Origin: Chromera velia
Taxonomy: Eukaryota > Sar > Chromeraceae
DNA: 55,248 nt
Direction: 5' to 3'
NCBI GenBank assembly: GCA_018398765.1
Contig: JAHBMJ010005290.1
Location: 9,077 to 64,324, forward strand
In this document: positions 2,218 to 46,918 of the stretch, one piece after another
Layout of the letters: each line of letters opens with the position of its first letter
Numbering within the stretch: position 1 is the stretch's first letter
Made by a program: the position numbers and the translations under genes
Notes under the pieces: model-generated
Database searches by the model: none
Told to the model about the DNA's origin: nothing
What the model saw: only the letters and a program-made list of their open reading frames with translations

Positions 2218-2237
2218 CCTTTCTTTCTTTCTTTCTT

Positions 2238-2306
<69 letters not shown>

Positions 2307-2344
2307 GTGTACGCATGTGTGTCTGTATATATGTGTGTGTGTTT
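2218..2344 (+). repeat. Compound microsatellite (CTTT)n(CT)n(GT)n
   Basis: A run of CTTT units passes into CT units and then into GT units without a break. The same order of motifs, or its reverse complement, recurs elsewhere in the window, for example at 19286-19362, 23025-23332 and 35230-35325. Non-coding. Confidence 0.9.
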
Positions 2345-2530
2345 TACTCTCCCGCCATGCATTAAATCTTGTCCCTCTGCCCCTCTCCCCCCTCCTCCTC
2401 ATCTGTTCATCGTCGGATTCTCAATTGCAAGAGGGTGCACTGGTAGATTGTGAGTGGGAGTGAAGAGGAAGGCGAAACAGTGTGGAAGGAAAACAACGAG
2501 AGGACGTCATGTTTGCATGCATCATCATGG

Positions 2531-2572
<42 letters not shown>

Positions 2573-2880
2573 GGAGCGCAGACCGTGACTTGAACTGAGG
2601 GGCGTCGATGTGGTTGGCAGTTAGTTGACACCCAATTCAAATGGATTTTTTTTTTGCCTTTTGAGTCGACCATCGGTAGCGGTATCGATGCTGGAATTGG
2701 GAGGGCAGATGGGGTGTGTTCGTGTCTGTGCTCTGAAACTCGTTGCTTCCCATGAATAAATTGATTGGGACTCAATTTGGGAGACAACCTGTTTTCTTCT
2801 ATGCGACTCAGAACTTGTTACTGGTGCTTGCCACACTAGCCGAGTGTCCTTGGTGCTTGCCACTCGATCTAGTTGTCAGG

Positions 2881-3747
2881 CCTCTAGCCAGGCCTTGCCT
2901 TCATGCTTGTAACAAGTAACCTAGCATTAATTACACTGTTTGTAATTTACATAGACTCTAAATCCTCATTCAGTAAGTGTTAGTATTACCCAGTAATGGC
3001 AGTGATGACCATGAACTTGAATGTCAACTAGCATAATAGTAGTAGTAGTATTTGATGTTGCAATACCAAAAGAACTTTTTTGTCTATACTTCAGTGTTTA
3101 ATATTTAGTGTTTCTTTTTTTACTTAATTTTTTTGCATGAACGAAATGCGAGCTGAACAGATAGACTGCACGGCAGGATGATAAAAAGCATGCACGTAAG
3201 GGTGGAGTGAGAAGAATTGATTCTAGACTTAATTCTAAAACTTTGAATACATTACTAGGTTACCCCAGATGTATCAAGACTAATGATATACTTTTTAATA
3301 TTTTTACAACTTTATGCCTTTGTGTACAGGTAAGTACTACAGCAATGTAGCCAGGTGTGTTGCACTGTTACGCAGATCATGCAGCAGATGGATGGAAGGT
3401 CAAGAGTGAGGAGACGTGCTAGGAGCGAATGCTGCAGATCTAAAATACATTTCCCCCCTACAACTTATTATTACTTATAATAAAATAATAATATTATAAT
3501 ATTAGAATTTGATTAACAAAAGGGATATAATAAAGGATATTACCCGCGGATATACTATAAGGAATCTATAACACCGTGATAGACTTGGACTTAAAACTCT
3601 AGTCAGAACTATCATACGCTATGCCAGTGCAGACATTACTGCTAGGGTTGACACTGTAAAGCCTTCAACAATGAAAACTCAGGCCAACTTTCTTTCTTTA
3701 TTTATTTTTTTAGAACTTTGTTAATTTTACGAGTGAAAATTGAATCT
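2881..3747. other. AT-rich gene-free segment
   Basis: Base composition changes sharply to AT-rich around 2880, with poly-T tracts, TAATA runs and an AGT triplet run near 3041. No open frame of coding character is present. It may be a patchwork of old insertions. Confidence 0.5.
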
Positions 3748-3891
3748 GATGATGATGATGATGATTGAGGGTTAAATCCTAGATCTAGCGACGCCAGATC
3801 CCAAGCCACTAACAAGGCTTTGAGGACAACCCAGAACACACATTCATATGGGGGGGGATGAGGAAGCCTGCATGCCAATCGGATCGATTCA
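3748..3891 (-). mobile_element. 5'-truncated copy of the LINE 3' end
   Basis: Read on the minus strand, this segment matches the last ~150 bases of the LINE at 14017-14170. Shared parts include the hairpin region around GAATCGATCCGATT, the C-rich stretch, the block through CTCAAAGCCTTG, and the (ATC)n tail, which appears as (GAT)n at 3748-3765 on the plus strand. Similarity stops at about 3891, so only the 3' terminus is present. A 5'-truncated LINE insertion, or a short element that borrows the LINE tail, would both explain it. I could not find a tRNA-like promoter upstream to favour the second. Confidence 0.75.
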
Positions 3892-4720
3892 CCTTAAGGC
3901 ACGCCACATCTACGGAAGCGCATGGAGACATAAGCGCTCGGTATACGCGTACACCACATTCATACATTAAATTTTGAAACAATCCGAAAAGAGAGTAAAG
4001 GCAAGGATGGATGAGAGGTGATAAGAGAAAAAACGGAGTTAATAACAGACTCTTTCGAAGATCTACACTGGCTTATGCCACCCGAAGGCAAAGTGGTAAT
4101 TCAATCGAAGTAATCAATACCACAATTCAGTCACCAACTTGACAAGGGAAGAGGGAACCACAAAGGTTCAAGTTTATGCTCGCAATATGATCAGCTGGTT
4201 TTTATGAGGAAGGAGTAAAGAGAGAAGAAAATTTGATAAAGATAAACACCTGGTCAATCAAGTATATACACCCAAACATACATACAAACACCAGAAGCGC
4301 ATCACCAAAAGCCCAATCGACCCTGTGACTATCTCACAAGGTACTCGCAGATCTCTTAATGTGCTTGGAAGACCGTGCTCTCTCATGACTTGGGAGTTCC
4401 ATCTCCACCTTCGACAATCAGACGAGTCATTCGTCCTCCTGGCCCAACGCTTGCACAAGCCGTGCAGCCGTGTTGATTTGCCAGATAGTCCAGTATGGCA
4501 ACTGCCGTCTCTTGCACGAGGAGCGGGGAAAGAGAAGAGCTGTCTCTTGTTGGGTTGAAAGAAGAAATGTCTTCTCCTTCAAAGGCTGGCTTCACAGGCT
4601 GGTTGCACAAAAAAACTACAGAATTCTCACGACCAGCTCAAAGGTCAGATTTAACTAGCGATCAAACTATTAATTGGCTAAACCGGCTTTGTATGGATTG
4701 TCCATATTAAAAAACACCTA
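3892..4720. other. Gene-free spacer between two transposable element remnants
   Basis: Mixed-composition DNA without a supported gene. The short open frames at 4258-4710 overlap on both strands and show no recognisable domain. Confidence 0.5.
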
Positions 4721-4728
4721 TAGCAATC

Positions 4729-4934
4729 CCAGGCGTCAGCTAAAGAAAAAAAATAAGCCATCAGAGGAGATCTTTTTTTTTTCTTTCTTTTTTATTTTTT
4801 TTCTCTGAACAATGCTTAAAAACAGTCGTGCAACACATGAACAACACTTGAACAACAGTTGCCTAATTGAAAAAAAAAAAAAAAAGTAAAGAGTTTGGGG
4901 GAATCTTTTTTTTTTTTCTTTAGCCAACGCCTAG
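4729..4934. mobile_element. hAT-like MITE (206 bp) with 8-bp target duplication
   Basis: The element has imperfect terminal inverted repeats: CCAGGCGTCAGCTAAAG at 4729-4745 and the reverse complement of CTAGGCGTTGGCTAAAG at 4918-4934. An A-rich or T-rich run follows each inward. It is flanked by a perfect 8-bp direct repeat TAGCAATC (4721-4728 and 4935-4942). An 8-bp target duplication is characteristic of the hAT superfamily. There is no coding capacity, so it is a non-autonomous element. Confidence 0.75.
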
Positions 4935-5151
4935 TAGCAATCGATTGAAAACATAATACTGCCCATCAACTGCATTGATCATCCTTCTTCTGAGCTTCTA
5001 CAAAGCTCCTGCAGCTACAGCAGCAACCAGTTTGCCAGTGAATTCTCAGTGATCGTTTTCTCGTATTCAGGAGTGAACTGTGGGTGGAGTTCTCGTTATT
5101 TAACTTCTTCCATCTCCGTCTCTTCTTCTCAAACTCTTTCCTCCCGTAGGG

Positions 5152-6710
5152 ATGGCAGATCCACAGGGAAGTGGAAGTGCCCAAAAGGCCCAGCAGGAGG
5201 CCGGAGACCAGAGCAAGCCCGGGGGGGAGGACGGGCGCGGGGCAGGGCACGCGGACGCGTCTGATGATGCCGAGGTTACGCTGAAAGATATTTTCCGGTC
5301 TCAACAAAGAATAGAAAAGAAAATGGATGAGAGAGAGAGAGAAAGTCGAAAGAAAATCAGGACAAGTTAAACAACAAAGTCCAAGGGCAGGGCAAGAAAA
5401 TCCAGAGAGCAGAGACGAGGATCTCCAAACTTGAGAAGAGAGAGACGGGTTGTATGATTGATGATGAGTTCAAGGCGAGAGAAAGAAAGATCGGTGATCT
5501 GGTCATTCATGGTTTCGACTTCTCCTGATGCACTGCGGTCACGGTCGCCTCTATCACAGATTATGAGAATAAAAGGAAGAAAGAAGTGCTTGATGGAAAC
5601 GGAAGATGGGTGAAGCAGGTCGCTTTTCCTCAACAGAGGAAGGACTTCTCGTCCTTTGCCCCCGTTCGTCTGTTCTTCTCCAATCTGGCCGAGGCCGCCG
5701 GAAAGGAGAACCCCTCCCAGGTCTCCCAGCAACTCCAGATCCGTCACTTCAGGTACTGGACAGAGAGAGACGGGGGACACAAGGCCGAGATCACTCTGGA
5801 TTCCGGTGATCGGGGGGACTGGATAGATATAGTGGATTCAGTGAAGGAGGGGGAGGGAGTAAATAGGGATAGGTCGATCTTCTGGCCCTCCGCAGACTCC
5901 AGTTCCCTCTCAATGGACAAGAGGGCATCCACGGGGAGGGTTTTCATCTATCGGGGTACCACCCCACTGTTCCGTCTCTTCGTGCAGGTGCAGAAAGCCC
6001 TTGATGCGGAGGCGGGGGGGGAGGCCTCCTTCGCCCAACAAGCCCTCATCTCCAAATATGCCCAGATCTGCCAGGATTGGAATGCTGCAACCAAGCGGCT
6101 CAAGGGGGAAAGAGTCGAGTTTCTGCAGGAGTGGCAGACCGGTCTGCCAGACAGGGGAGAGAGGGATGGGAATGATGAAAGAGAGGGCAGGGGTAGGGAC
6201 CCCATTCTCAAGGGCAGTTGGAAGTCCCCCGGTTTCGCCGAAGACAGTCTATCCCCAGAGCCCGTCAGGGCGGACAGATCGGGTACGCCAAAACGTGGGG
6301 CAAGGGGGTTCGGGAGGAATCCGGGCACGGTCGAGAAAGACCAACGTGCTCACTCAAAGTTCGGGGGTGAGTACATCCTGATGAGAGGTGGCTTCGGGGA
6401 GGTGTCTAGGGGGGCTCCTCGCTCTGGGTTGTTCGGAGCTGACGGGTGGGAAGGGGGGCCCGCAGCTAAAGAGGATGAGATGAAGAGCATACACTCTAGA
6501 GCAGAGGGGTGCGCGATGGGGCAAGTCGCGTTCTTCCCGAGATCATTAGCACAGCAGCGCTCTCAGGCCTCCCCGCCCACCGATGTATCTATGGGAACGG
6601 GTCCATCGGGAACAGATGCCTCTGTTGTACAGAGCTTTATGCACATCAATAGACTAAAAGGGAGGGAATCGGGGGAAGGGGACGGGGGGGTGCGGCCCCC
6701 TCGGTATTGA
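5152..6710 (+). pseudogene. LINE ORF1, coiled-coil protein, frameshifted
   Basis: The frame starts at ATG 5152 (MADPQGSG). It runs into a charged heptad-like segment, ERIEKK-type then ISKLEKRE, which suggests a coiled coil for trimerisation as in many LINE ORF1 proteins. The reading frame shifts within the (GA)n run near 5330-5345. It then meets one in-frame TGA at 5526-5528 and continues in the same frame to the TGA at 6708-6710. The central part (RHFRYWTERDGG, WIDIVDSVKEGEG, SKYAQICQDWNAATKRL) looks globular but I cannot name its fold. No CCHC knuckle is seen in this part. The role in RNA binding is inferred from position only. Confidence 0.65.
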
Positions 6711-6850
6711 ACTACCCTCAGGGGAGGAAGAGCGGCAGGACCTTTTCTCTCTGCAGATCATCTCATCCTGTGACGCGGCAGTCTCGGGAGCTCCTGCCAA
6801 TTAAAGAGCCCCTACCCCACCCAAACCAATTTCTCCCTCCTTCCCTAGCT

Positions 6851-6955
6851 CCTACTGACGACTCGTTATCCCTGTCCCTCTGCTCATCCCTCCAGCCTGC
6901 CGATGACTCGTTATCCCAGTCCTTCTGCCCATCTCTACAGCCTACCGATGACGCG
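6851..6955 (+). repeat. 45-bp coding tandem repeat (2.3 units)
   Basis: Units start at 6851, 6896 and 6941 (partial). Each full unit encodes 15 residues of the type P(T/A)DDSLS(L/Q)S(L/F)C(S/P)SLQ. It lies in the middle frame of the LINE. Confidence 0.85.
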
Positions 6956-9261
6956 AGAGGCAACCCCCTCCATGAGAGAAGAGTGTTGCCTGTCTGCCTG
7001 CCTGCCTCGGCTTTGCCTCCCCAGCAGCCCCCCTCCAAACCCGGTCCCCTCGATTTGAACGAGTTGCAACTGGCTCGGGACCAGAAACCAAGAGAGGGCA
7101 AAGCTCCTCCCTGCCAACTATGCCGCACACATCAACCAGAGATTGGGGAGGAGCGGGCCCAGTGGGTCGATTCTCCTGTGCTTTTGTCAACCGTTTCCGA
7201 CAGTCAGACAGAAAGGGAAACAGACACAGACAGCCAAGTAAGTGGCGGAATAGATAGCTTGATGTAAGGACACTTTTTGGTATGCAGAGAAATGAATCGA
7301 CAGAAAGGAAATAATCTCTCTTCCGCCCTCACACCCCTAACAAAAAGAAGACTTAGTCAGCTAAATACGCAGACAGAGTCAATCTTATCGCTGAGAAGAA
7401 GGTTGGATGGAAAGGTAGAGAGGCAGCCCGCTCTCTTATATGAACTCATTCCGGCCCGCTCTCTCTTTTTCCCTCTCTGTGCAGGGAAAGAAGAACATGC
7501 CAAAAATGACTCTCGAGCGGATACGGATTTCCCCCCCCTTTGCTCGATGCCCCCTCCTCCTGGATTTTGCCCTAGGTGGGACGGGTTGCCTTGTGCTGAC
7601 CAGGCCTTTGCAGGAATTCCTGAGCCGGAGGTATAGAGAACTGTGCAGAAAGGAAAGGGGAGGATTCGTTCTTGGAAGGCAGAAAGGCATGCAGTTAGAC
7701 AGACGATGAGCACCAACAGATGGAGCGCACTTCAGGCAGAAACAGATGAGTTCGCAGAAAAGCTTTGTACAGATACATTAGGCAGACGGCCCTCTCAGTG
7801 TCTTTCCTTCTTCCCTCACTCTCGAGGGGAAACTTCACGGAAGAAGAGGCAGACACAGAGGAAAAAGATGAGAAGAAGATCTAATAAGAGCAGAGGAAGG
7901 GCACGGACAAGGAAGAATCTAGATAGGCAGCAACGAATTAACCATATGTGTTTACTGTATGATGCATCCTTTCCATGTACATGTCTTCCTCCATGCCTCT
8001 CTCTCCCTGTTGCCTCTCAGTTTGTTTTTGGTCGGTCCTCATCTGTTATCTTCCCCCCTTCTTTTGTATTCATGGATTCTTGTCATGGTTCTGTTCAACC
8101 CTCCGCCCCAACCCTCTGCTTGCCTCCGTTGCTTTCCCCTTCCCCATTTCATTTTCTTCCCCCCCCACCACCTCCCCCTCTGCCTCCTTCCTCGGAGGCT
8201 CCTCGTCCCCCTCCTGAACCTCCTCCTCCTCCTCCTCCTCACTTTGCTGTTCCTGCTCCTTCTCCACCTGTCTCACTTCCATTTCCCCTCACTCCACCTC
8301 CAGTGGCACCCCCTCCTTTTTGCTCCTCTCTGTCCTCTCTGCCTGTTGTTCAAGCGGCCTACGGACCGAGTTACGGTGTTCCTCATGGTGCTTCTTTCTT
8401 CTCCTCAGCTTCCTCTCTCCCTCTCCCTCCGCCCATCCATTCTCGTTCTGCTTTTTCCTTTCTACCCCCCCCGCAGAGAGAATGTGGACAGGGGGAGCAG
8501 CAGTCATACAGACAGGCCTCAGGTAGCAAATTGGGGGACGGAAAGAAAAGTAAAGAGAGGGAGAGATATGATGCAAAGGAGAGAAATAAAAAGAGAGAGA
8601 ATGGCAGGGAAAAGCCCGACAAGCAGGGCCGTAACAGACGGGGGGGGAACCATAAAGGGAAATGTTGTAACTGCAAGGCTTCTGCAGGCGGATGTCGTCT
8701 GTCATCTAGATGCTCATGCGCTAGAGGGTCGGAATCTCTCCCAGCTAGACCGTGCGTCGATTGCGACTGTTTCGAAAAAGGGTGCTGCAATAACCCCCTA
8801 AATGGAAAGAATCTCATATCCATCCCTCGATGAGAGCTGCATGAGGACAAACAACAAGAAAGAGAACGCCGTAGAAGGAGACATGAGCGTGATTTTCTGT
8901 CCTCGCCTTCCTCCTCTTCCTCTTCTTCTGTCTCTGATTCTTCCTTCTCTTCTTCTAGATCTTCTGATGACAAGGATGAGGAGGACCGAGCCCTCATACA
9001 TGGAGGCTCACGCTCTTCTGCAAGAATTCGTGCAGTGAGGGGCGGAAAGGGAAAGAGAAGAGAATATGATTTTTGGAGGAGGGGTGCTTCCGACTTCGCA
9101 TGGATAAGCGCAGATTAACTAAAAAAAGACGAGAAGCGTCTGGTGTGTGCCTTCTGGGCCGGTCGCAGGGAAGCATGCAGACTCAGAAAGTGTGAAGTTT
9201 CAGACCGACAAAAGCGTTATGCAGGTTCTCCTTCCAACCTTCCCCCCCCTCCGGTTGCAGT

Positions 9262-9624: not shown

Positions 9625-12600
9625 ATGGCTTCAGGAAGAAGGAAACTCACAATAAAAACGGTAAATGTGGGGGGGCTGGGGTCACGCATACGAAGCAAGG
9701 CTCTCGAGCGGTGGCTGGCCGCTTGCCAGGCAGACATTGTGGTGTTAACGGAAACGAAGTGCCTTTCCATACCCGTAAGAACATCCACTCATACAAGGCA
9801 TAATTTCGATCACTTTGAGTGGTTGAGAAGGAAAATCAAAGTAGAAGGGTCGAGAAAGAAAGCCGCAACCATCAGGGAAGCAAGGACAGGGGGTGTATGC
9901 ATCCTAGTCAGGAATTCTTTAGTTCATGAACTGCAGCCAAGGTGGGAGCTGGTGGGTCAAAATCTGGTCTGTCTGTCAGTGAATGTGCCTTCTCCCTCAG
10001 AAAGGGGGGAGTCAGCCACGAGAGTCCTCCATGTCTTCGGTATGTACTTTTTACCTAGAGGGTCTGACCTGAGACAGAGAGACAGGGAGCAAAGAGACAG
10101 AGAGAGAGAAGGTGTGATCGATGCACTGTATCAGGTACCTCTTGAGGATTAATTTTGCGTATCCTGGTTGGGGACATGAACGGCAAGCTGGGAACTCGGG
10201 TGCCGGAAGGGCTAATTTGGGAAAGAATGCTATGTCCCACTGATGAAAGCAGAGAAAAGAACGAAGTTGATGCTTGCAAGCCCTCTCGATTGTCAGCTTG
10301 CAGCCATGGCAGTCAACCTAACGAGCAAGGGAATTGGCTGATCTGTCTTTGTGAACGCTCTAACTTAATTCCTCTCCATGGCCTGTCCTTAAAATGTGAG
10401 AGGCTGGGTGTTGATGTCTCCTTTCCGGGCCCGTGCACCTTTTTTAAAGCAGGAGAAGAAACAACAGCGATTGATCACTTTTTTGTGGATCCCTTTCTTT
10501 TGACAGCCTGGTCCTCTGCCACTTCAAACCTGGAAGCTGATTTTGCCCCTCAACATGTTGTTCTTTCTCTTTCTTTTTTTTTTGATTCATCTCCTCCCCC
10601 TATGTCTTCTGATCCTCCGCATGCCCCCACGGGTGAAAAGAATTTCTCTTTTCTCCCCCCTCTCCTCACTGTTAATAGAACTTCCCCGGTGACTGATGAT
10701 AAAATGATTCCTCTCGCCAGAGCGGTCCTGCCGTTTTCTGAAACGGTTTTTCCTGGCCTATTCGACAGAGGGGTAAACAAACTGCGTGAAGCAGGTCAAG
10801 TTGTTTCCCTTATCCCACCTCCCCCTGACCTACCACCCCTTCCCCCATAACCACCTCCCCTTCAGAATGCTCCCCCCCCCAACTCTCTCAGTAAGGCTTC
10901 TTATCTTGACTAATTGGAACAGTTGGGTCTTTCTTGGGAAGAAAGGCTAGCACACAGTAAAGTGGGTGCAGTGGTAGACGGAGGAAAGGCATCCAAGAAG
11001 AGAAGACAGTCTGGGAGAAAGCAGAGCACCCGTCAGGCTTGGTGGGACCCTCAATGCCGCCTGATTCATTTGAAGGTGAAGGAGGCAGAGGAAAAGGCAA
11101 AGCATGTTCCAAACCCTTCTCACCCTCTGTGAAAAGAATGTGTCAAACTGAGAAGGGAAAGAGCTCGACTGTTTGCAGCAAAAAGGAGTAAGCTTGAGCA
11201 ACAGACAGAAGAGAGGCTAGCTAGAGAAGCAGCAGTTGACCCCTCGAAAGTTTGGCAATGGAACAGGAAAATCAAAACACAGAAAGGAGGGGATAATAAA
11301 CCCGCTGCATCTTCTTTCACTCAGTTCTGGGCAGGGGTCTTCGACGGTCCTGGTCTCCCGCCTGCACCTGTTGGTCTGGCCTTCCCCCCTCCTTCTCAGC
11401 CCGCCTTCTCTATACACATGATCGAGGAAACACTGAAAGGAATTGACCCAAAGAAGGCGCTGGGTTTAGATAGGGTTGGCCCCTGTCACCTCTCGTTATG
11501 TTTTGGTTTTTCTCCTCTCTCCCGCTTGCTGCTCTTTGTCTTTTTCAATTTGTTTCACCTTTTTTCTTTTTGGCCTGAACGCTGGAATGTATTGCGCATT
11601 GCTCCCGTTCCCAAGGGCCCGCCGAGTCTCGACTGTAACGAATGGCGCCCAATCCACATTGTGGGGCTTTTAGGTAAGATTTTTGCTTTATTGATGGACT
11701 CAAAGATCAGGAAAGAGATGAAAATTGACGAAAGGCAGCTCGGCTTCAGATAGGGGGTAGGGACAAGGGAGGCCTTCGCTGCTCTGTCTTTGTTAATTCT
11801 TAGCTCCAAAAAGAAGAAGAGCCCTCTGATTGCCGCGTTTATTGATTTCAGCAAGGCGTTTGATACAGTTCCTCAGGTCAAAATGTTAGAGAGGCTCAGG
11901 GAGGAAGGAGTAAGCCAAGCCGATGTTTGGATGATTCATTCGATGCATAGTCAGGTGAAGGCTTGGGTGGATGGGGCAACAGAATGCTTTCCAGAAGGCG
12001 GAGGAGTAAAACAAGGCGATCTTCTCTCTCCTCTCCTCTTTCTTCTTTTTATCAACAATCTGCATAAGTCTGTCAGCTCTGATAATGAAAACAGGAATCA
12101 AAGCTCGGCTGGGGGTACTGATGGAGAGACTCCTGTCAGACTGTCTGACGTTTTAATTGAAAGCATCGGATATGCTGACGACCTTGTTCTGTTTGCTCAC
12201 AGTGCTTCTGACTTGCAGAAACGCCTGTCTCGCCTCGAGGACTATTGTAAGGAGCACGGCCTGAAGGTGAATTTAAAGAAGACAAAAGTTATGCGTCTCT
12301 CCTCCCCCCACCCCGACCTAGTGCCCCGGACCCCTTTTCTTTATGAAGGCAGACCAGTGGAAGTGGTGAGTAAATATAAGTATTTGGGCAACTGGGTTTT
12401 TGAGGGCGGGGACCTTAGCAGGATAGTCGAAGCCCGCATTGAGGCGGCAGAGAAGGCTTTGGAGGCGGTGTTTAGTACTCTCTCTTCTCTGGGCTTTGTT
12501 TCTCCCTTTTCTAAAATTACTTTGTTCAAGGCCCTCTGGCTGCCAGTCGCGCTGTATGGACTGGAAACGATCCCGCTGAGAAAGACAGATGTTGCCTGCC

Positions 12601-14014
12601 TCGATGCATTACAGTTACGTTTTGTTCGATATTGTTTTGGTCTCTCCCATCACTCCTTTATTTCGCCTTCCCTTCTCTCTCTCTCTCTCTTGAGCCATTC
12701 AGTTCTCTACTTGGTAAGTTGAGTGGGGGCTTCATCCAATGCATCAAATCGATCGACCGTACTCTACCCCGGGCAGTGTGGAATGAGTGCTTGGCTGGCT
12801 CATGTGAACCCTTCGTTAAGACAGTCAAATGGCTGGCCGTTCCATTAGATTGCTCCCTTTTGTGGCCTCCATTGCCAAGCACGGTGGGGGACAAGTTTAA
12901 AGGGAAGGGCAAGGGCAGAAGGAAAAGGGCGGCAAAAAAGATCGTAGAGGGTGCCTGGCTGTCCGACTGGTTGAAAGAAAAAACTAGAAACGTTAGAGAC
13001 AGAGACGGAATTTTTCCCCACCTTGCAAATCTCTCCCCTTTCCAATCAGAGAATCCGTCCAGACAGCGTTTGGTCATGCACCTTCTGAGTGAAAGGAAAT
13101 GGCGTCCGAGAAGTGAAATGATAGAGTGCAGTGTTGAACCTCTGCCAAAGAGTCTGTTGCAGTCCTTCGCAGGCTTCCGTACGCTTTTCAGGGCTCTCAC
13201 AGGGGGGGATATAGATAGAACCCAACCGGAACGGCTGTGCGATAAATGTTTGTCCCCCTCGCATGTGATCAAAGATGAGGTTCATGTTCTGACGGAATGT
13301 AAGGACACAGAAAGGGAACGGACAGAGTTGTTAAGTCCCGACAAACCTAAGTACCGAAATCCGATACCGACCCCCCGATCCGAAATTTTTCGGTACTTTC
13401 GATACCTTTTCAGTACTTTCGGTACCAGCTTTTTTATATATTCTAAACAGGTTTTTAGAACTCTTTGCAGACTGTTTATACGCCGTTAGGACACTGGAAT
13501 GCTCAAAGATGACTAGCATGAACTTTTGGGTTTTATGCCTCAATCCATAGACCGTTCTAGAAGACAAAAGTCGCGGAACAATCAAAAAAGCTAGAAAAGA
13601 CTTTCTTAATTTTAATTTATCATTGTATTTTGTTTATTTTGTTTTATGAAGTGTGTTTAAATGATATTCTAACATCAGACTACATGTGATTTTTAAGTTT
13701 GAGAGTCATTTAGCTTGGTACCGAAAGATCCGATCCGAAATCCGATACCGACCCCCCCTCTGGTACCAAGTTAACAACACTGGGAACAGAATAGGCTGAA
13801 AGAACTGTATGAAATTGCGAAGCAGAAAGCACCCATTGACATAAGAATACAGATCGCACAACGCGTTGCAGGTGCAACCGGGAGGGGCACTTCTGATAAT
13901 GAGAAAAAAATAAAGGATATGGTGTTGCTGTTGTGCACAATTCTACCTAGAAGCGGTTCCAAAGCTATAGCCGACTGTCTCAAGAAGGTCCATTCTGTCG
14001 ATAAGGCAAGTTGA
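9625..14014 (+). pseudogene. LINE ORF2: APE endonuclease, reverse transcriptase, Zn knuckle
   Basis: The frame starts at ATG 9625 (MASGRRKLTIKTVNVGGLGS). The APE endonuclease shows ADIVVLTETKC, the LVGDMNGKLG box and AIDHFFVD. The reverse transcriptase shows KKALGLDRVGP, QLGFR followed by G.GT, IAAFIDFSKAFDTVP, GGGVKQGDLLSPLLF and the palm box IGYADDLVLF (about 12168-12197). The C-terminal Zn knuckle is CDKC...DEVHVLTEC (about 13240-13302). Lesions are a 1-base shift near 10150, in-frame stops at 10848, near 10909, 11130 and 11751, a frameshift in the (CT)n run near 12670-12690, and the MITE insertion at 13323-13782. Beyond the MITE the frame resumes (NRLKELYEIAKQ) and ends at TGA 14012-14014. 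Known role of the family: target-primed reverse transcription. Confidence 0.9.
13323..13782. mobile_element. hAT-like MITE nested in LINE ORF2 (460 bp)
   Basis: Terminal inverted repeats read CAGAGTTGTTAAGT at the left (13323) and CAGTGTTGTTAACT, as reverse complement, at the right end (13782). The flanks are an imperfect 8-bp duplication: GGAACGGA at 13315-13322 and GGAACAGA at 13783-13790. Sub-terminal GGTACC/TACCGAAA blocks are repeated directly and inverted, and an AT-rich core separates them. Insertion plus duplication is 468 bases, and the LINE frame is the same on both sides. CAG-type ends and 8-bp duplications fit hAT. Confidence 0.8.
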
Positions 14015-39839: not shown

Positions 39840-42800
39840 TTATGAACAAGCAGCAGGGTGTGCAGGCGTCTGCAAGGCCTGGAGGAGGAGACGGAGCTGC
39901 CTCTCCTCCAGGGGGAGCCTCCGATTTCCCGACCCCCCACTTCCCCCATGGCCTGCGGGAGGTGCGGGGGGGGCCTCCGCTGTGCCCTCGTCCTTCGCCT
40001 CACACACACTCCCAGAGCCGTCTCTTCTCGCTTCTTCACAAATTTCGAGGGCACTCTGAAAGTACGAACGCCAGTCAGGGGTTCCCCCCGCGCCGTCACG
40101 GCAGGCCCCCGGCCGAGTCTGGCCGTCCGGCTCACCGCTGGAGCTCATGCGAATGCACAGACCCGCAAAATAAGCGGCACGACACAGATCATCACGCACA
40201 CGAAGGTACCACTCCTGTCCTGGGAGTGCGCTTCCTTCTTTCCCTTTTCCCTCTTCTGCTTTCGTCTGCTTCCACCACATCATGAGACGGTGGAAATCAG
40301 AGAACGCAGTCTCCAAGTGCGTCAAGGCCTCAGGGGCCTTCTCGGCAGCCAACAAAGCTCTGCCAAGGAACAGACGGGTTGACGCAAGGGCAAGGGGGTC
40401 CTTGTTAGTGCAGGCAGCGGAGAGACGCAGAGCAAGAGAGTCGTGAAGTGCGGCAACTGCCTCCTTCACTCTCTCACCCGCTTGGTCTTTCAGGCATTCT
40501 CTTGCGGTTGGGGGGCGGGTGGCGATCCCTGCGGAGGGGAACAGGGAGCCCGCAAACCCCTCCAGAGCCCCCATGATCGTTGCATCAGGGCGCCCCGTGC
40601 CATCCAATGCATCCTCCACCATCATCAAAAGTGCGCAACCGAGAGACAAACTCAGGTCGCACACCTGCCCTGTGTACTTTGCACCACAGCAGCTGAAAGT
40701 GGTAATGCAATTTCGGAAAAGGGGAATGGCATCGCTGGGTCTCTGTTGGAGCTCATACAGCTGAGCAAGTCGATGCTTTGTTTCCGCAACTGATGGGTGG
40801 TGTTCGGGCAGGTGTCCGACTAGAATTGTCAGTGCTTTCTTGAAGCAGTGCTCTGCCCCCGAAATTTCTTTCAACTGCACTCTCACTGCACCCAGTTCGT
40901 GGTACGACACCCCCACTTCCAAATGGTGAATGCCTAGGACTCGTTTCTTCAACTGCACTGCCCTGCCCAGCAGGTCACGTGCAGTCACCAAGTCCCCCGA
41001 ATTCCCACACGCCACACCGAATGCTGCCAAGGTCTGGCACGTCTCTATGGACATGGGGGCAAATCGGAGACGGAGATCCAGACAACAGTCGAAACAGGTG
41101 CGGGCTCGTTCGAAATCCCCCCGGGCTTGCCACTGGAAATTCGCAGCGGCAAACAGAATCGAGGCGAGCTGAGACACATACAGAATTGTGAAACTGCCCA
41201 TCGCAGTCGCGAAGGTCGACGCTGCACGGAACTTGGCAACTGTGGCAGCTGCCGTCCCCCTGTGTGCATGTGAGTCGACAGCGGCACGGAGACGGGTCCA
41301 GAGACGGTGTGCGGTGGTGTGACATGCAATGACCATCTTCCGATTGGATTCCATTTCGTCGATGGCTGCTATGAATTTGGCTTCTGCTGTGTCGTACCGC
41401 CAAGAGTCGCGGGCAATCTGTGCTTCCAGAAAGAACCCTTCGGCCCTTTGCATCGCGGCAGCACATCTGGCGAGTTGCTGCTGTGCCTGGATGGCTTCAT
41501 GTTCCCCGTCGATCTGAGATTGGAGACGGGGAACCTTGGGGACATCTGCCGTCTCCTGCTCTGCTGCCATCTGAGAGGCAACGTGGGCAAGGGCTGCTGC
41601 GTGGTTGGAATGCCCCACTTCCCCGTAGGCCTGTGCAAGGTGGAGGCACATGGAGGCAATGGCCTGGGGCTTGGCGGCGCCCTGGGGGGTCCACCAGGGG
41701 GACTCGTAGGGGGGCATGAGCAGCCACTTGAGAGGCTCGGAGTGGGGTCCGAGGGCGACAGTTTCGGGCACACTGGCAGTGGAGGAACCTGGGGCAGAGG
41801 AAGCGGTCTCAAGGGTGGCAGAGATATCTCTCTCGATGACGGAAGCAGAGGGTGTGACCCCTCTAGGAATGTGGGAAGCGGTTGGTTGGGGTGTGCGGCT
41901 GGATGCGGTGGCTGTTCCTGTTGCTGTTGTGCCGACATCTGTCGTGAGGACGCTCACGTTCTCATTCTCATTCGCCCAGTCGGGGGATTCGTCTGAGCAT
42001 ACGGGCTCGGGAAACTCCAAACAAGGCAGGGGGGGCGCCTGTTGTTGCTGTGTCTCTTCAACCACAGCCTCCCCCCCTTCTGCCTGCTGGACGCTCTTTG
42101 CGCCCCCCCTCACTCTTTCGTTAGCCCTCACACCGGAGTAGATGGAAAGGGCTGCGAGAGCAGGACTTCCATGTGCCCTGGAAGTTAGGGCCTGCTTCAC
42201 TCGCTCCGAAGCCTCACGCTCGAGGTCGGACGCCGAGACCCCGACTGACGTGTGGGGGTACGACATTTCGGCCTCTCCTGCATACTGCGGCACCATCCCG
42301 CAGAGGTTCACCCTCAGAAACGCAGTGCCATACCCTAGCAGATACGACTGCAGCTCATCTGACTGCGTTTGGGAGAAAGCATCTCCGGCTGCGACGGTCC
42401 CGGAAGGCAAATGTGCGAACGCGGGGTTACTCGGGGATGCAGAGAGACTGTCGTGACCCACACAGGTCCTGTCGAGGTGCATTCTGAGACTGCGTTCGGA
42501 GTTCATACAGGCTTTGTCAAAGGAAGACAGGAAGTCTTTTCGACTGGAGACGGGAGGAGACGGGAAGCGGGATGCCCCCTCAGAGGCTTTCACGTTCTCG
42601 CCTCCTGATGCCGAGTTACTCTCTGCCGTCAGTTGGGGTCGGAGGAAATATGCGAGTGTGGCAGAGGGAGAGACGGAGAGACTCTCGAGAGGAGGCAGAC
42701 TCGAAGCGCAGGACGCGCCAGAGACGATGTGCGTCTCCTCTCCGACAGAAGCGCTGTCGAGTTCCCTGGAGGAGACTTCTGCCTCCTCCAGGAGGGAAGG

Positions 42801-45800
42801 CCCCAAGTGGGGTCTGGGGGTCATGGGGAGGAAGTGCCCCTCTCCCTCTGTGTCTCGGACTTTGTTCGAGGGGTCATCACTTAGCTCGGTCTCATACTCC
42901 CCACGTCCCCCCGGGAAATCCTCTCGCCCCCCCGCAGACCACCATGAGGGCGTCTGCTGGGTCTGATGCTGCTTCTGCTGCTGCTCACGGCCTCTGTCGC
43001 ATCTTTGCAGAAGAGCCATACAGAGAGCACGCTCAAAGATTTCAATTCGGCGCATGGGATGCATACGCAGGGCGAAGACTGGAGCGCCCATTTGGGCAAG
43101 CGCAAGGAACGCGGGGGAGGCCCCGGCAATGTCCAAAGCGCACTCTAGATTGGGTCTCTCCCTGTCGAGCAGTCTCATCGCACTCGCACGGACTTCGGAA
43201 GGCACGACGTAGGTCGAGTCGCTTCGAGAAGGCACTCGATGCGATCCGTCTCCCGCCGAACTGCCCCCCATCGGCATGGGGGGAGGGGGGGGTCCCCACG
43301 CGGCTGTCAACGGATTCTGACGACCCCCCCCCGACTGTTGTCTAGAGGAAGACAGAGAACCCTCATCCCCCCCCAAGCCCCCTTCCTGCTGCGGCTGCTG
43401 TTGCTGTTGCTGCTGGTGGTGGACACCATAGCCGTCAAAGGTGACAGCACCAAGCACTGGCTGCTTGCTTGCAAAAACCGAAACCTTCCAGAGAATGGCA
43501 GCACAATAGAAGACGAAGCGGGTTCTCAAAAGCCGCTCCTCCTCTCTGGTCAACAATTGACCACGAACTGCATTCCCACCGTCATCCGCTGTCTCCTTCG
43601 CGGTTTCTTCCCCTTCTTTTCCGGTGGAGGGCGAAACCGCCCCCCACCGGCGGAGACACACCCTGATCAACGCATGCAGGAAGTAACTGTTGATCATCGG
43701 CTCGTATTCAACAAGCTTGCTCTCGTACAGGGCACCCAGGAACCCCCGGGCCCGTTCAACATCTCTGACCCCATAACCCGCACTCCCCAGAACTGCAGAC
43801 GCTCCCTCGAGGGTAAAATATCCCACGAAGATGGTCAGCTTGCAGAGAGCAGACCGAAGAGAGGGGTCAAGAGAATCTAGAGACGGTGCGAGGGTAGAGG
43901 CGTACTCACGGATACCGAAGGACAAAGACGCCTCCACACACGAAGAACCCGAACCGTCTCCCTCCCCCTCATCCTCTTCCACCCCACCCCCCGACTTCAA
44001 CCCCCCATCAGCGTCATCAACGACCTCTTCAAGAGGCCCCTTCAGCTGTCTGGGTCCGGCCGTCTCGTTCAACAGCCGGGTTGTCACGTCGTCAACCGAC
44101 AAGTCCTGGCGGCTAGACAAAAGCCGACCAATCACCCTTAGCACTGCATGAATATCGACAAGACAGAACAAGAAGGAAAAGATGAACAAGGCATTATGGG
44201 CGGGAACAGGTCCACAGGAGAGAACCCGTTGACTCTCGTACGGAAGGGACTTTCTCAACCAGTTTCTCCACTCACATACTCGAAAAGACCCTGTACTCCC
44301 CCACTTACTCACTCACACGCGCGCAGAGGGAGAGAAAGGGGAGGAGAACGGTAAACGAGACAAACGTACGCAAGAAAAGAGAAATCGGACAGTCACAGTA
44401 AAAATATTCACGCTGTACAAAATCGGTAGGATTCTTCTCACGATTTTGAGTCTTGCCTGTGGAGGAGGACAAGGAAGAAGAGAGGGAAGAAAAGAAACAA
44501 ACAGGCGACCCACCGAGTGGCAAATTCCCGCAAAGTTCAGCCAGTTTTTCTGCCTGAGCGGGTGACACACTGGGTGCCAGCTGGCGAAGAAGCTGCACCG
44601 CGGAGGGTTGCGGCAGCTCCCTCAGATGAATGTGCACGGGGACGACGGAGCTCTTGGGGGGCAGATCTCCCGCCTTGAGCAGTCTGCGGGATGTGAGGAG
44701 AATTTTCACATTGGGGCTTCTGTCAAGCAAATCGATGACCCATGCGAGGAATGGGATCGGGCATCTGCGGAGAAGTTCTTCCCCGTTGTCCATAATGATC
44801 AGTCTCTTCCCATTCACAAACGGAAGAGGCCGAACTCCCTCATCACTCCCCACACCAAGGACCGAAAGAGTCGTGCCCGCGACCCCCTCCACCCATTTCA
44901 GCCCCTTCAAAGGCAGCCAGTGGACCCCCTCACTGAACCAATGCCGTTTCCACACAAACCGACCCACGGCACACGCAAGTGCCGATTTACCCACCCCCGG
45001 TGCACCCACGATCACCACCAAACGCTGTGAGGTCTTCAGTGCCCTGCACACCTCCCACATCGGCGCCTCTCTGCCCACTACATGATCGAAATTAATGGAC
45101 GGCAGAATCGCGGGACCCAAACGAACGCTGCGATCCACAAACGCCCCCTTGGGCAGATCTCCGAACAGCACTGCACGGTGATTGCCTTTCTCGGGGAGGA
45201 GCACAAACTTCTCAGCCTCCAACGCCCCCTTCGGAATATCCGAAGAATGACGAACCAACCAGAGGGCATGACGGAAAGCCCCTTCGACACTCTGCCCTTG
45301 CAGCAGGGAGTGATACAGAGCGTACGCAAATTTGCGTGCAGCTTTATCAAGGATTCTCTGGTCTGTCTCCACTGCAATCACATGCCGAGCTCCTGCGTTG
45401 ACAAACGCAGTGGCAAGGGACTTGGAGTTACAGCTCGCGAGCACCACACACTTACAGGCAGCCTCGCTGGCCTCACCCATACCCCCCACCGATGGACTCC
45501 CGGCCCCCACCCCATTAGAGGACCCCCTTGCGGCGCTGAACAATTCGGCCAGCGCGGGTCCAGTCATGGCGATGGCGTCGCCATTCCCCGCCTCCAGGAG
45601 CAGCGTGCCGTCTGCGGAGGTGTGCCCGGTGATGTGCAGGACCTGACAACCTGAATACCCACATGCACGCATGCATGAGTATGGGTCAGAAGCAAAGAAT
45701 CCCGCGTGCAAAAAAGAAAGAATTGTGCAAAGAAGCGAGAGGACGGAAGGCGAAGCGGAGGCGCAATAAAAAAAAACAAGGGGAGAGAAACGGAAGGGCT

Positions 45801-46918
45801 TTTCTAGAGAGCGAGGGCAGACGGCCGTAGTAAACAGAGAGGAGATGGGGGAAAAACCCACACTTCCCATCTTTCCCTTTAGCTCTGCATTCTTCCCCCC
45901 CTTCTCTTTCTCTGCTTCTCCATCTCCTGGGGTAGCACAAAGACACGCATGCACCCTTCAGCTGACTAACCGAGCTGCATGATGTGGGAGAAGCTCTCGG
46001 GTGTTGCGTAGGAGAACCAGTATGTGCAGCTTCTGCCTGCGTCTGACATGGCCCTGAGCAGAAGGTCCTGCTCGCTGTCAACGTCCAGAGGGTCCAGCGG
46101 TCGGACCTGCAAAGAAGAGAAGAGAAGAACAGAGAGAGAACATGTATTTGCAAAAGAAGAAAATACGGAGAAAGGGGCTCAAATAGAGGTACTGAAATGG
46201 GTACCGACGGGAAAAGAGAAAAGGAGGCAGCGAGAGCGAGAGCCAGTGCAGAACCTTCAAACCAGTATGAACCAAATTCATGGGCCGACACACGACTTGT
46301 CGACTGACCGAGACAGTCTGTCCGACTTGGTTCATCTCAATGAGAGGAGAGGAGCCGATCACAGCAATGTCGATAGAGCTGTGAGTCCTCAGAGAGACAT
46401 CGTGCTTCAGTTGGTTCATTGCCTTCATGATTCTCTTCTTGTCTCCCAGAGTTGTGATCCCCATCTCAGACAGGTCCGAGCTGGTCAGATCGAACAGAAT
46501 GTCGCCTGCAGTCAAAATGCACACCAAGCAGAGACCGATAAGGTGGAGCAGCAGAGCAGAACAGTGATAAAGTAAGCAGGAGAAGAACCACAAGAGGACG
46601 TGCAAGATTTGAAGCGCGGAAAAGTGAGGGGAGGCTTTAAACGACTCACTCAAAGGCAAAGCTCTTGTACATATTCACAATTTTACAGGATGCCTGACCT
46701 GAAATCCCGTTTGTATGAAACTGCTCGACGAATGCCTCCAACCCCGCGTGCTGAAGCCACGCACACGTATCGTCCACTGTCCATGTGTGGACTTGGGCAG
46801 GATCTGGAAGGGAGAAAATTCTCTTCAGTTGATCCGAATCGGTTTCCATATTCGGGCTTTGATAGACTCCATCGCCATTCGGGGGGGCGCTCCCCGGAGG
46901 AACGGCCTCGCCGTTCAT
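39840..46918 (-). CDS. SAM-CHAT-NB-ARC-TPR protein (NLR-like), five exons, 1997 residues
   Basis: Exons on minus: 46918-46699, 46505-46309, 46106-45971, 45650-44514 and 44143-39840; phase is kept at every join. The SAM domain is at residues ~43-107 (VHTWTVDDTCAWLQHAGLEA, then ISGDILFDLTSSDLSEMGI). The CHAT (caspase-like) region is ~115-315, with LHITGHTSADG at 189-199 and VVLASCNSKSLA at 253-264. These place His194 (or His190) and Cys258 as a candidate catalytic dyad, and YHSLLQGQSVEGAFRHAL follows. The NB-ARC domain starts at VVGRE (375). Its P-loop is GAPGVGKSAL (400-409), Walker B-like LIIMDN (468-473), sensor KILLTSRR (500-507) and GLPL-type CGNLPLVLRVIGRLL (558-572). A long, partly disordered region with poly-Gln follows. 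Kinesin-light-chain-like TPRs lie at about 1560-1760. The family acts as a nucleotide-switched protease or death-type signal hub; the target is unknown. The ATG at 46918 is chosen because the upstream codon in the open frame is GTG. Confidence 0.9.

Follow-up and report, generated by a model that had tools for sequence, protein, structure and literature searches.

A spliced SAM-CHAT-STAND-TPR gene of Chromera velia as a candidate NLR-like protease switch

Here we describe a minus-strand gene of Chromera velia, located in a stretch of 55,248 nucleotides (the window, from contig JAHBMJ010005290.1, our C3719), whose five exons join into one frame carrying a SAM domain, a caspase-like CHAT domain, a STAND ATPase and a TPR region. 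An N-terminal effector, a central STAND module (an assignment that carries the profile and fold caveats given below) and C-terminal repeats in a single spliced frame make up an NLR-like layout, and on balance the gene probably encodes an NLR-like protease switch for defence or cell death, in which SAM, TPR and CHAT would play the parts proposed below. Alignments show that CHAT and the STAND ATPase form a conserved unit common to diatom, environmental and bacterial proteins.

The open reading frame of 1997 codons, obtained by conceptual splicing across introns of the GT...AG type, runs from an ATG at 46918 to the TAA that follows exon 5 (Table 1), an exon that by itself holds 1433 open codons. 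The span and the phase-consistent five-exon structure agree with the original prediction, which had been made from the letters alone, and all four junctions are bridged by local alignments. The exon 1/2 junction is crossed by two SAM proteins (P0032 and P0033), the 2/3 junction by 10 CHAT-STAND relatives that align from residues 118-134, the 3/4 junction by 13 such relatives and the 4/5 junction by six ATPase proteins (for example L041, 188-578, E-value 7.8e-21, and P0030, 358-587, E-value 2.5e-11); matches of P0032 across 2/3 and 3/4 and of P0002 across 1/2 were taken as chance extensions and left out of these counts. Exon 2 holds both the end of SAM and the start of CHAT, exon 4 both CHAT and ATPase, and exon 5 both winged helix and TPRs, so that the link between effector and sensor depends on the 4/5 join alone and the SAM-CHAT and CHAT-ATPase fusions hardly depend on the splice prediction. 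The presence of introns marks the gene as eukaryotic.

The CHAT domain (Pfam PF12770) spans residues 166-318, with an E-value of 5.8e-8 and 33 bits against a cut-off of 24. The GHT (193-195) and ASC (256-258) motifs that had been proposed as its His-Cys pair place His194 and Cys258 in the conserved dyad columns: both residues are kept in 17 of 18 aligned rows, the window dyad being in register with 16 of the 17 others. The position after the catalytic His is occupied by Gly in 16 of the 18 rows, by Thr in the window gene and by Cys in P0003. This last, a diatom protein, has lost both dyad residues and kept the CHAT-STAND unit, a natural pseudo-protease version. A caspase-like fold, which the original prediction had named as the feature to check, was found by structure comparison: the predicted structure of the domain is caspase/separase-like and closely matches activated SAVED-CHAT (PDB 8tl0). 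In Craspase the dyad Cys is required for cleavage, and the dyad geometry shifts on activation (PMC9729208). Since the dyad is kept in the window gene, its CHAT is likely to be a working protease.

The SAM domain, also foreseen, is matched in the spliced protein by SAM_2 at residues 43-107 (Pfam, E-value 1.4e-14, 54.4 bits against a cut-off of 20.5) and by SAM_1 (E-value 2.5e-14). By sequence comparison the nearest SAMs in the PDB are those of Caskin-1, DGK-delta, liprin-beta-1, Caskin-2, Shank2 and TIR-1 (the last at E-value 3e-8), which we take to be SAMs of polymer formers; SAM domains in general serve as adaptors. A protein search with region 40-420 returned an environmental protein of 2428 residues (P0032) and, as the sole further match, an annotated diacylglycerol kinase (P0033). 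P0032 was rejected as an orthologue despite an E-value of 2.4e-59, because it has 15 SAM stretches, no CHAT and no other Pfam domain over a cut-off, its score arising from repeated SAM matches. That search gave no further SAM-CHAT protein, which is weak evidence since it also missed the known CHAT-STAND relatives.

The putative ATPase carries a P-loop, GAPGVGKS, at residues 400-407 (45006-44983), followed by LIIMDN (468-473), LLTSR (502-506), GNLPL (559-563) and FLHALIR (718-724), which we take to be the Walker B, sensor (TSR), GxP and winged-helix motifs; motifs in this order fit NB-ARC. The winged helix with FLHALIR was placed by eye at residues about 660-735, in exon 5. On the spliced protein NACHT scores 20.7 bits against a cut-off of 26.7 (E-value 3.9e-4) and NB-ARC 20.1 against 23.5 (E-value 4.3e-4). 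When the whole assembly was searched in six frames, the NACHT model found the exon at 26.3 bits, or 27.1 with its neighbours (cut-off 26.7), and the NB-ARC model matched seven other places, the window exon not among them. The proposed NB-ARC ATPase has its motifs in order but falls below the profile cut-offs on the whole protein. In comparisons of the predicted fold, Apaf-1, NRC4 and other resistosomes equal ORC, Cdc6 and ClpA in Z. The expected TPR C-terminus is matched by TPR_12 in four stretches (Pfam, E-value 1.8e-16).

When a genome collection was scanned with a pattern based on the module, 61 stretches came up, one of which encodes a relative (L020, in an Anaerolineae metagenome-assembled genome, JAIMBB010000077.1) among neighbours that look bacterial by eye. 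The L020 protein, 1045 residues as scanned, carries EAD7 (E-value 2.3e-15), CHAT, NACHT/NB-ARC over both cut-offs and TPRs. It has the same four-part order and is 33% identical over window residues 142-512 (CHAT, linker and ATPase; E-value 4.8e-43), with the dyad intact, but it bears an EAD7 adaptor in place of SAM, is intronless and has GHG where the window has GHT. EADs are adaptor domains (PMC7159879, PMC10907252), and Pfam lists none in the window protein at E-values up to 1; with SAM present and EAD absent, the protein may work like the bacterial EAD-CHAT-STAND-TPR proteins without being one of them. Of 400 Chloroflexota genomes searched, 7 had matches, amounting to 8 loci with L020 included. 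All eight pass for CHAT and for an ATPase family (L043 for AAA_22 only), seven have TPRs (L039 ends at the contig end) and one has EAD7, in a scan that left the upstream genes outside. Two further places in the Anaerolineae genome (G001), C3:5763-6050 and C248:21782-22078, match the EAD7 end of L020 at 42% and 38% identity, as expected if EAD7 pairs L020 with separate partners. For three bacterial relatives PADLOC gave TPR matches only, and for window exons 4 and 5 it gave none; in NCBIfam neither these three relatives nor the two exons had a match that passed a cut-off.

Protein searches identified seven relatives that share the CHAT-linker-STAND unit at 25-29% identity. One has a named source, the diatom Pseudictyota dubia (P0003, with C-terminal ARM repeats by Pfam and the dyad lost in the alignment); the other six are environmental and were assigned to eukaryotes on the basis of their partner domains, which according to Pfam are ankyrins and a kinase domain in P0001, ARM and LRR in P0002, P0004 and P0005, LRR in P0006, and UBA domains in P0013. 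Pfam CHAT passes in four of the seven (P0001, P0002, P0004 and P0005) and reaches 21 against a cut-off of 24 in P0006, with no match at E-value 0.01 in P0003 or P0013; P0003, P0006 and P0013 were placed by alignment, and P0013 also by fold. No SAM domain was found in the seven by Pfam at E-value 0.01. Two fragments of 58-59% identity (P0011 and P0012), probably from a close relative, begin past the His column and carry no word on SAM, TPR or His; they and P0014 and P0015, the latter two partial, were left out of both trees described below. P0007-P0010 and P0016-P0031 were rejected as CHAT-STAND relatives, being TPR, TPR-CHAT or ATPase proteins by precomputed domains and local matches (the Pfam scan covered P0008).

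The C. velia assembly itself (177.8 Mb in 4040 contigs) holds the CHAT family in at least three places, namely the window gene, L011 and L012. L012 (C1625:71500-81000, plus strand 3792-8861) is a single open frame (1690 codons) in which about 1000 residues separate CHAT from the ATPase. L011 (C2406:94000-103500, minus strand) is spread over three open reading frames (6287-6991, 4016-6214 and 2230-4065), with a hydrophobic segment preceding CHAT; upstream lie, by eye, a signal-peptide-like stretch and an ectodomain of the galactose-binding-like (F5/F8 type C) sort, for which Pfam gives an E-value of 0.17, and if this ectodomain is real L011 would be a receptor in the membrane with protease and STAND in its tail. 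In the ATPase frames Pfam gave a sub-threshold AAA_16 for L012 and nothing for L011, and a profile built from the ATPases of the other members scored 41.0 bits on L012 and 33.4 on L011, where the top score among 1500 shuffled controls was 4.3. Judged by these comparisons the window gene belongs to a set whose CHAT-STAND core is constant and whose partners vary. No SAM matches were found on the contigs of the two other CHAT genes, a lower bound. The genome gave no match to gasdermin (PF04598), a weak test for distant gasdermins, and gasdermin was dropped as a candidate substrate. The seven further NB-ARC matches, L013-L019 (C1207, C2930, C247, C637, C2089, C371 and C1771), sort by eye into two groups of similar appearance that have an uncharacterised N-terminal region in common, and appear to be a separate NB-ARC family of the organism; no CHAT was seen by eye in their open frames, where no Pfam scan was made.

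A tree of CHAT plus ATPase was built from 16 rows, leaving out L043 (branch 3.8), P0005 (a near-copy of P0004) and three TPR-CHAT outgroup rows. A 100/99 split separates the nine rows taken as eukaryotic, together with L020, from the other six Chloroflexota rows. The nine form a group at 85/84, below conclusive support, and in 82% of bootstrap trees. A tree constrained to unite the window gene with L020, as would follow if the gene had descended directly from that line alone, was not rejected (P value of the approximately unbiased test, p-AU, 0.154), whereas the free tree groups the nine rows; such a descent was set aside. In a CHAT-only tree of 21 rows the CHATs of CHAT-STAND proteins stand apart from three bacterial TPR-CHAT proteins at 100/100, the position of L020 is not settled, and the program warned of long branches meeting (the window gene with P0013). 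The simplest reading of these trees, in which long branches are a caution, is that the CHAT-STAND core had a single bacterial source; transfer may also have run in the opposite direction, from a eukaryote to a bacterium.

Parts of this architecture have precedents. N-terminal CHAT domains have been reported on fungal NLRs (PMC9815663, PMC12881547), as has a SAM-type domain, SAM_Ste50p (PMC9815663, where SAM is likewise an adaptor). These proteins are eukaryotic and use CHAT as an N-terminal effector, but the accessible accounts, compared by description and not by sequence, do not place SAM and CHAT in one NLR; a fungal CHAT protein with TPRs activates a gasdermin (PMC12881547), a family without a PF04598 match in the window's genome. 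TPR-CHAT proteins are known in bacteria and are expanded in corals (PMC12314368). SAVED-CHAT (8tl0) resembles the window protein in CHAT fold and dyad columns, and SAVED-CHAT and the TPR-CHAT of Craspase in being activated by assembly or a partner (PMC9729208), although they sense through a cyclic-nucleotide or RNA-guided part and have no STAND ATPase; Pfam gave no SAVED match in the window protein at E-values up to 1. In SARM1 and TIR-1, as here, SAM adjoins an immune or death enzyme, and the SAM of TIR-1 is among the closest listed above. That enzyme is a TIR NADase, without a STAND ATPase. Brown algal NB-ARC-TPR genes share the STAND and TPR layout and belong to a related supergroup, but their accessible description, the sole basis of the comparison, mentions neither CHAT nor SAM (PMC10197012). 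Literature searches, with most subscription papers outside them, gave no record of SAM and CHAT in one NLR (a phrase search that misses PMC9815663, where both terms occur apart) and, by titles and listings, none of CHAT-NLRs in algae including Chromera. The domain order and NLR-like reading of the original prediction hold, with qualifications that it had not made: CHAT and a SAM-type domain were already reported on fungal NLRs, CHAT-STAND-TPR proteins occur in bacteria, one of them with another adaptor where SAM stands here, and the residue that follows the catalytic His is Thr. What was already known is CHAT-NLR and SAM-NLR in fungi and TPR-CHAT in bacteria; what was found here is bacterial CHAT-STAND-TPR, the surprise being L020 as a twin of the same order.

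STAND proteins such as Apaf-1 and the resistosomes are activated by ADP-ATP exchange and ring formation. By analogy, at rest ADP would keep the STAND module closed and CHAT silent, until the binding of a ligand, or of a damaged host protein, at the TPR end triggers exchange of ADP for ATP and assembly of the STAND domains. SAM-SAM contacts, in the place held by EAD7 in the bacterial relative, would extend or couple this assembly, which would switch CHAT on as in SAVED-CHAT filaments. Active CHAT would then cut a host substrate and so start a defence or cell-death programme. CHAT is turned on in filaments in SAVED-CHAT (title of PDB 8tl0; PMC11229360) and by assembly or a bound partner in Craspase (PMC9729208). 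The core most probably came from a bacterium once, the new adaptor and sensor parts being gained in eukaryotes.

Several points weigh against a switch for defence or cell death. The role is predicted from sequence and fold; the ATPase does not single out the NLR clade, given the Z ties with ORC, Cdc6 and ClpA and the whole-protein NB-ARC and NACHT scores under their cut-offs; and Thr as the residue next to the catalytic His, the sole such case among 18 rows, may weaken the protease. Only 4% of 200 bootstraps of the CHAT-only tree unite the ten rows taken as eukaryotic. The genome has just three CHAT hits (a lower bound), unlike expanded immune-receptor sets, and no PF04598 gasdermin match. CHAT also acts outside immunity, in HetF in cyanobacterial division (PMC8406250) and in TTC28 in cytokinesis (PMC12314368). 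The protein could instead be a CHAT switch for the cell cycle, development or stress housekeeping, in which ATPase and TPRs answer an internal cue and a regulatory protein is cut by CHAT, much as with separase-like or HetF-like CHAT proteins. The resemblance of CHAT to separase and its action in division in other lineages (PMC9729208, PMC12314368, PMC8406250) favour this idea, as does the low CHAT count; we consider it unlikely, though a serious contender, as CHAT-STAND coupling with exchangeable adaptors and repeats is the layout of conflict systems (PMC7159879, PMC10907252).

The GHT motif, together with the diatom P0003, which keeps the module without either dyad residue, also suits an ATP-gated SAM scaffold for the recruitment of further SAM-bearing proteins, its CHAT being a pseudo- or weak protease, and in one class of bacterial systems about 70% of effector-position caspase domains are inactive (PMC7159879). 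With His and Cys intact in the window protein and a predicted fold close to activated SAVED-CHAT, such a scaffold appears improbable. More doubtful still, and in our view very hard to credit, is a fusion by the five-exon model of two genes, one for SAM-CHAT-ATPase (exons 1-4) and one for winged helix and TPRs (exon 5). The gene model is a prediction from DNA, and the exon 4 frame does run open into intron 4, down to 44305; but six local alignments span the join, the separate ATPase would be left without a winged helix, exon 5 would start within the GLPL region, and in seven of the eight bacterial relatives ATPase and TPRs lie in one frame.

Table 1. Parts of the window gene, with positions in the window
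Feature	Position	Strand	Content	Basis
Exon 1	46918-46699	-		GT...AG splice model
Exon 2	46505-46309	-	SAM end and first CHAT strand (residues 118-139), uninterrupted	splice model
Exon 3	46106-45971	-	N-terminal CHAT part, residues 140-184; L020 alignment starts at residue 142	
Exon 4	45650-44514	-	CHAT core, conserved linker, STAND ATPase with P-loop, up to GNLPL	
Exon 5	44143-39843, stop TAA 39842-39840	-	NB-ARC end, winged helix, low-complexity linker, TPR region	
SAM domain	46792-46699 and 46505-46405	-	exon 1 and start of exon 2	Pfam
His194	45624-45622	-	exon 4	
Cys258	45432-45430	-	exon 4	
TPR region	41207-40554	-	residues about 1543-1760, exon 5	Pfam

Elsewhere in the window, open frames at 10146-12719 on the plus strand resemble by eye the reverse transcriptase of a non-LTR retrotransposon.

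The way in which protists, single-celled algae among them, sense infection or trigger cell death is largely open, with metacaspases the usual suspects, and a chain that unites a switch with a caspase-like protease is a direct candidate. To our knowledge, canonical animal and plant NLRs and caspases are not known in the protist lineages concerned. We suggest tentatively, and at rather less than an even chance, that the gene belongs to an unrecognised protist family of protease-NLRs, whose core entered eukaryotes once from bacteria and in which EAD7, a bacterial death-like adaptor, was swapped for SAM, UBA, ankyrin-kinase, ARM/LRR and perhaps a membrane-anchored ectodomain. If so, the window protein would be a self-contained apoptosome whose single chain holds a sensor, a switch and a caspase-like protease. 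L020, the bacterial relative with its parts in the same order, is workable in laboratory bacteria, and the family would show a route from a bacterial conflict protein to a eukaryotic receptor, in which the protease-switch core was kept and the adaptor changed.

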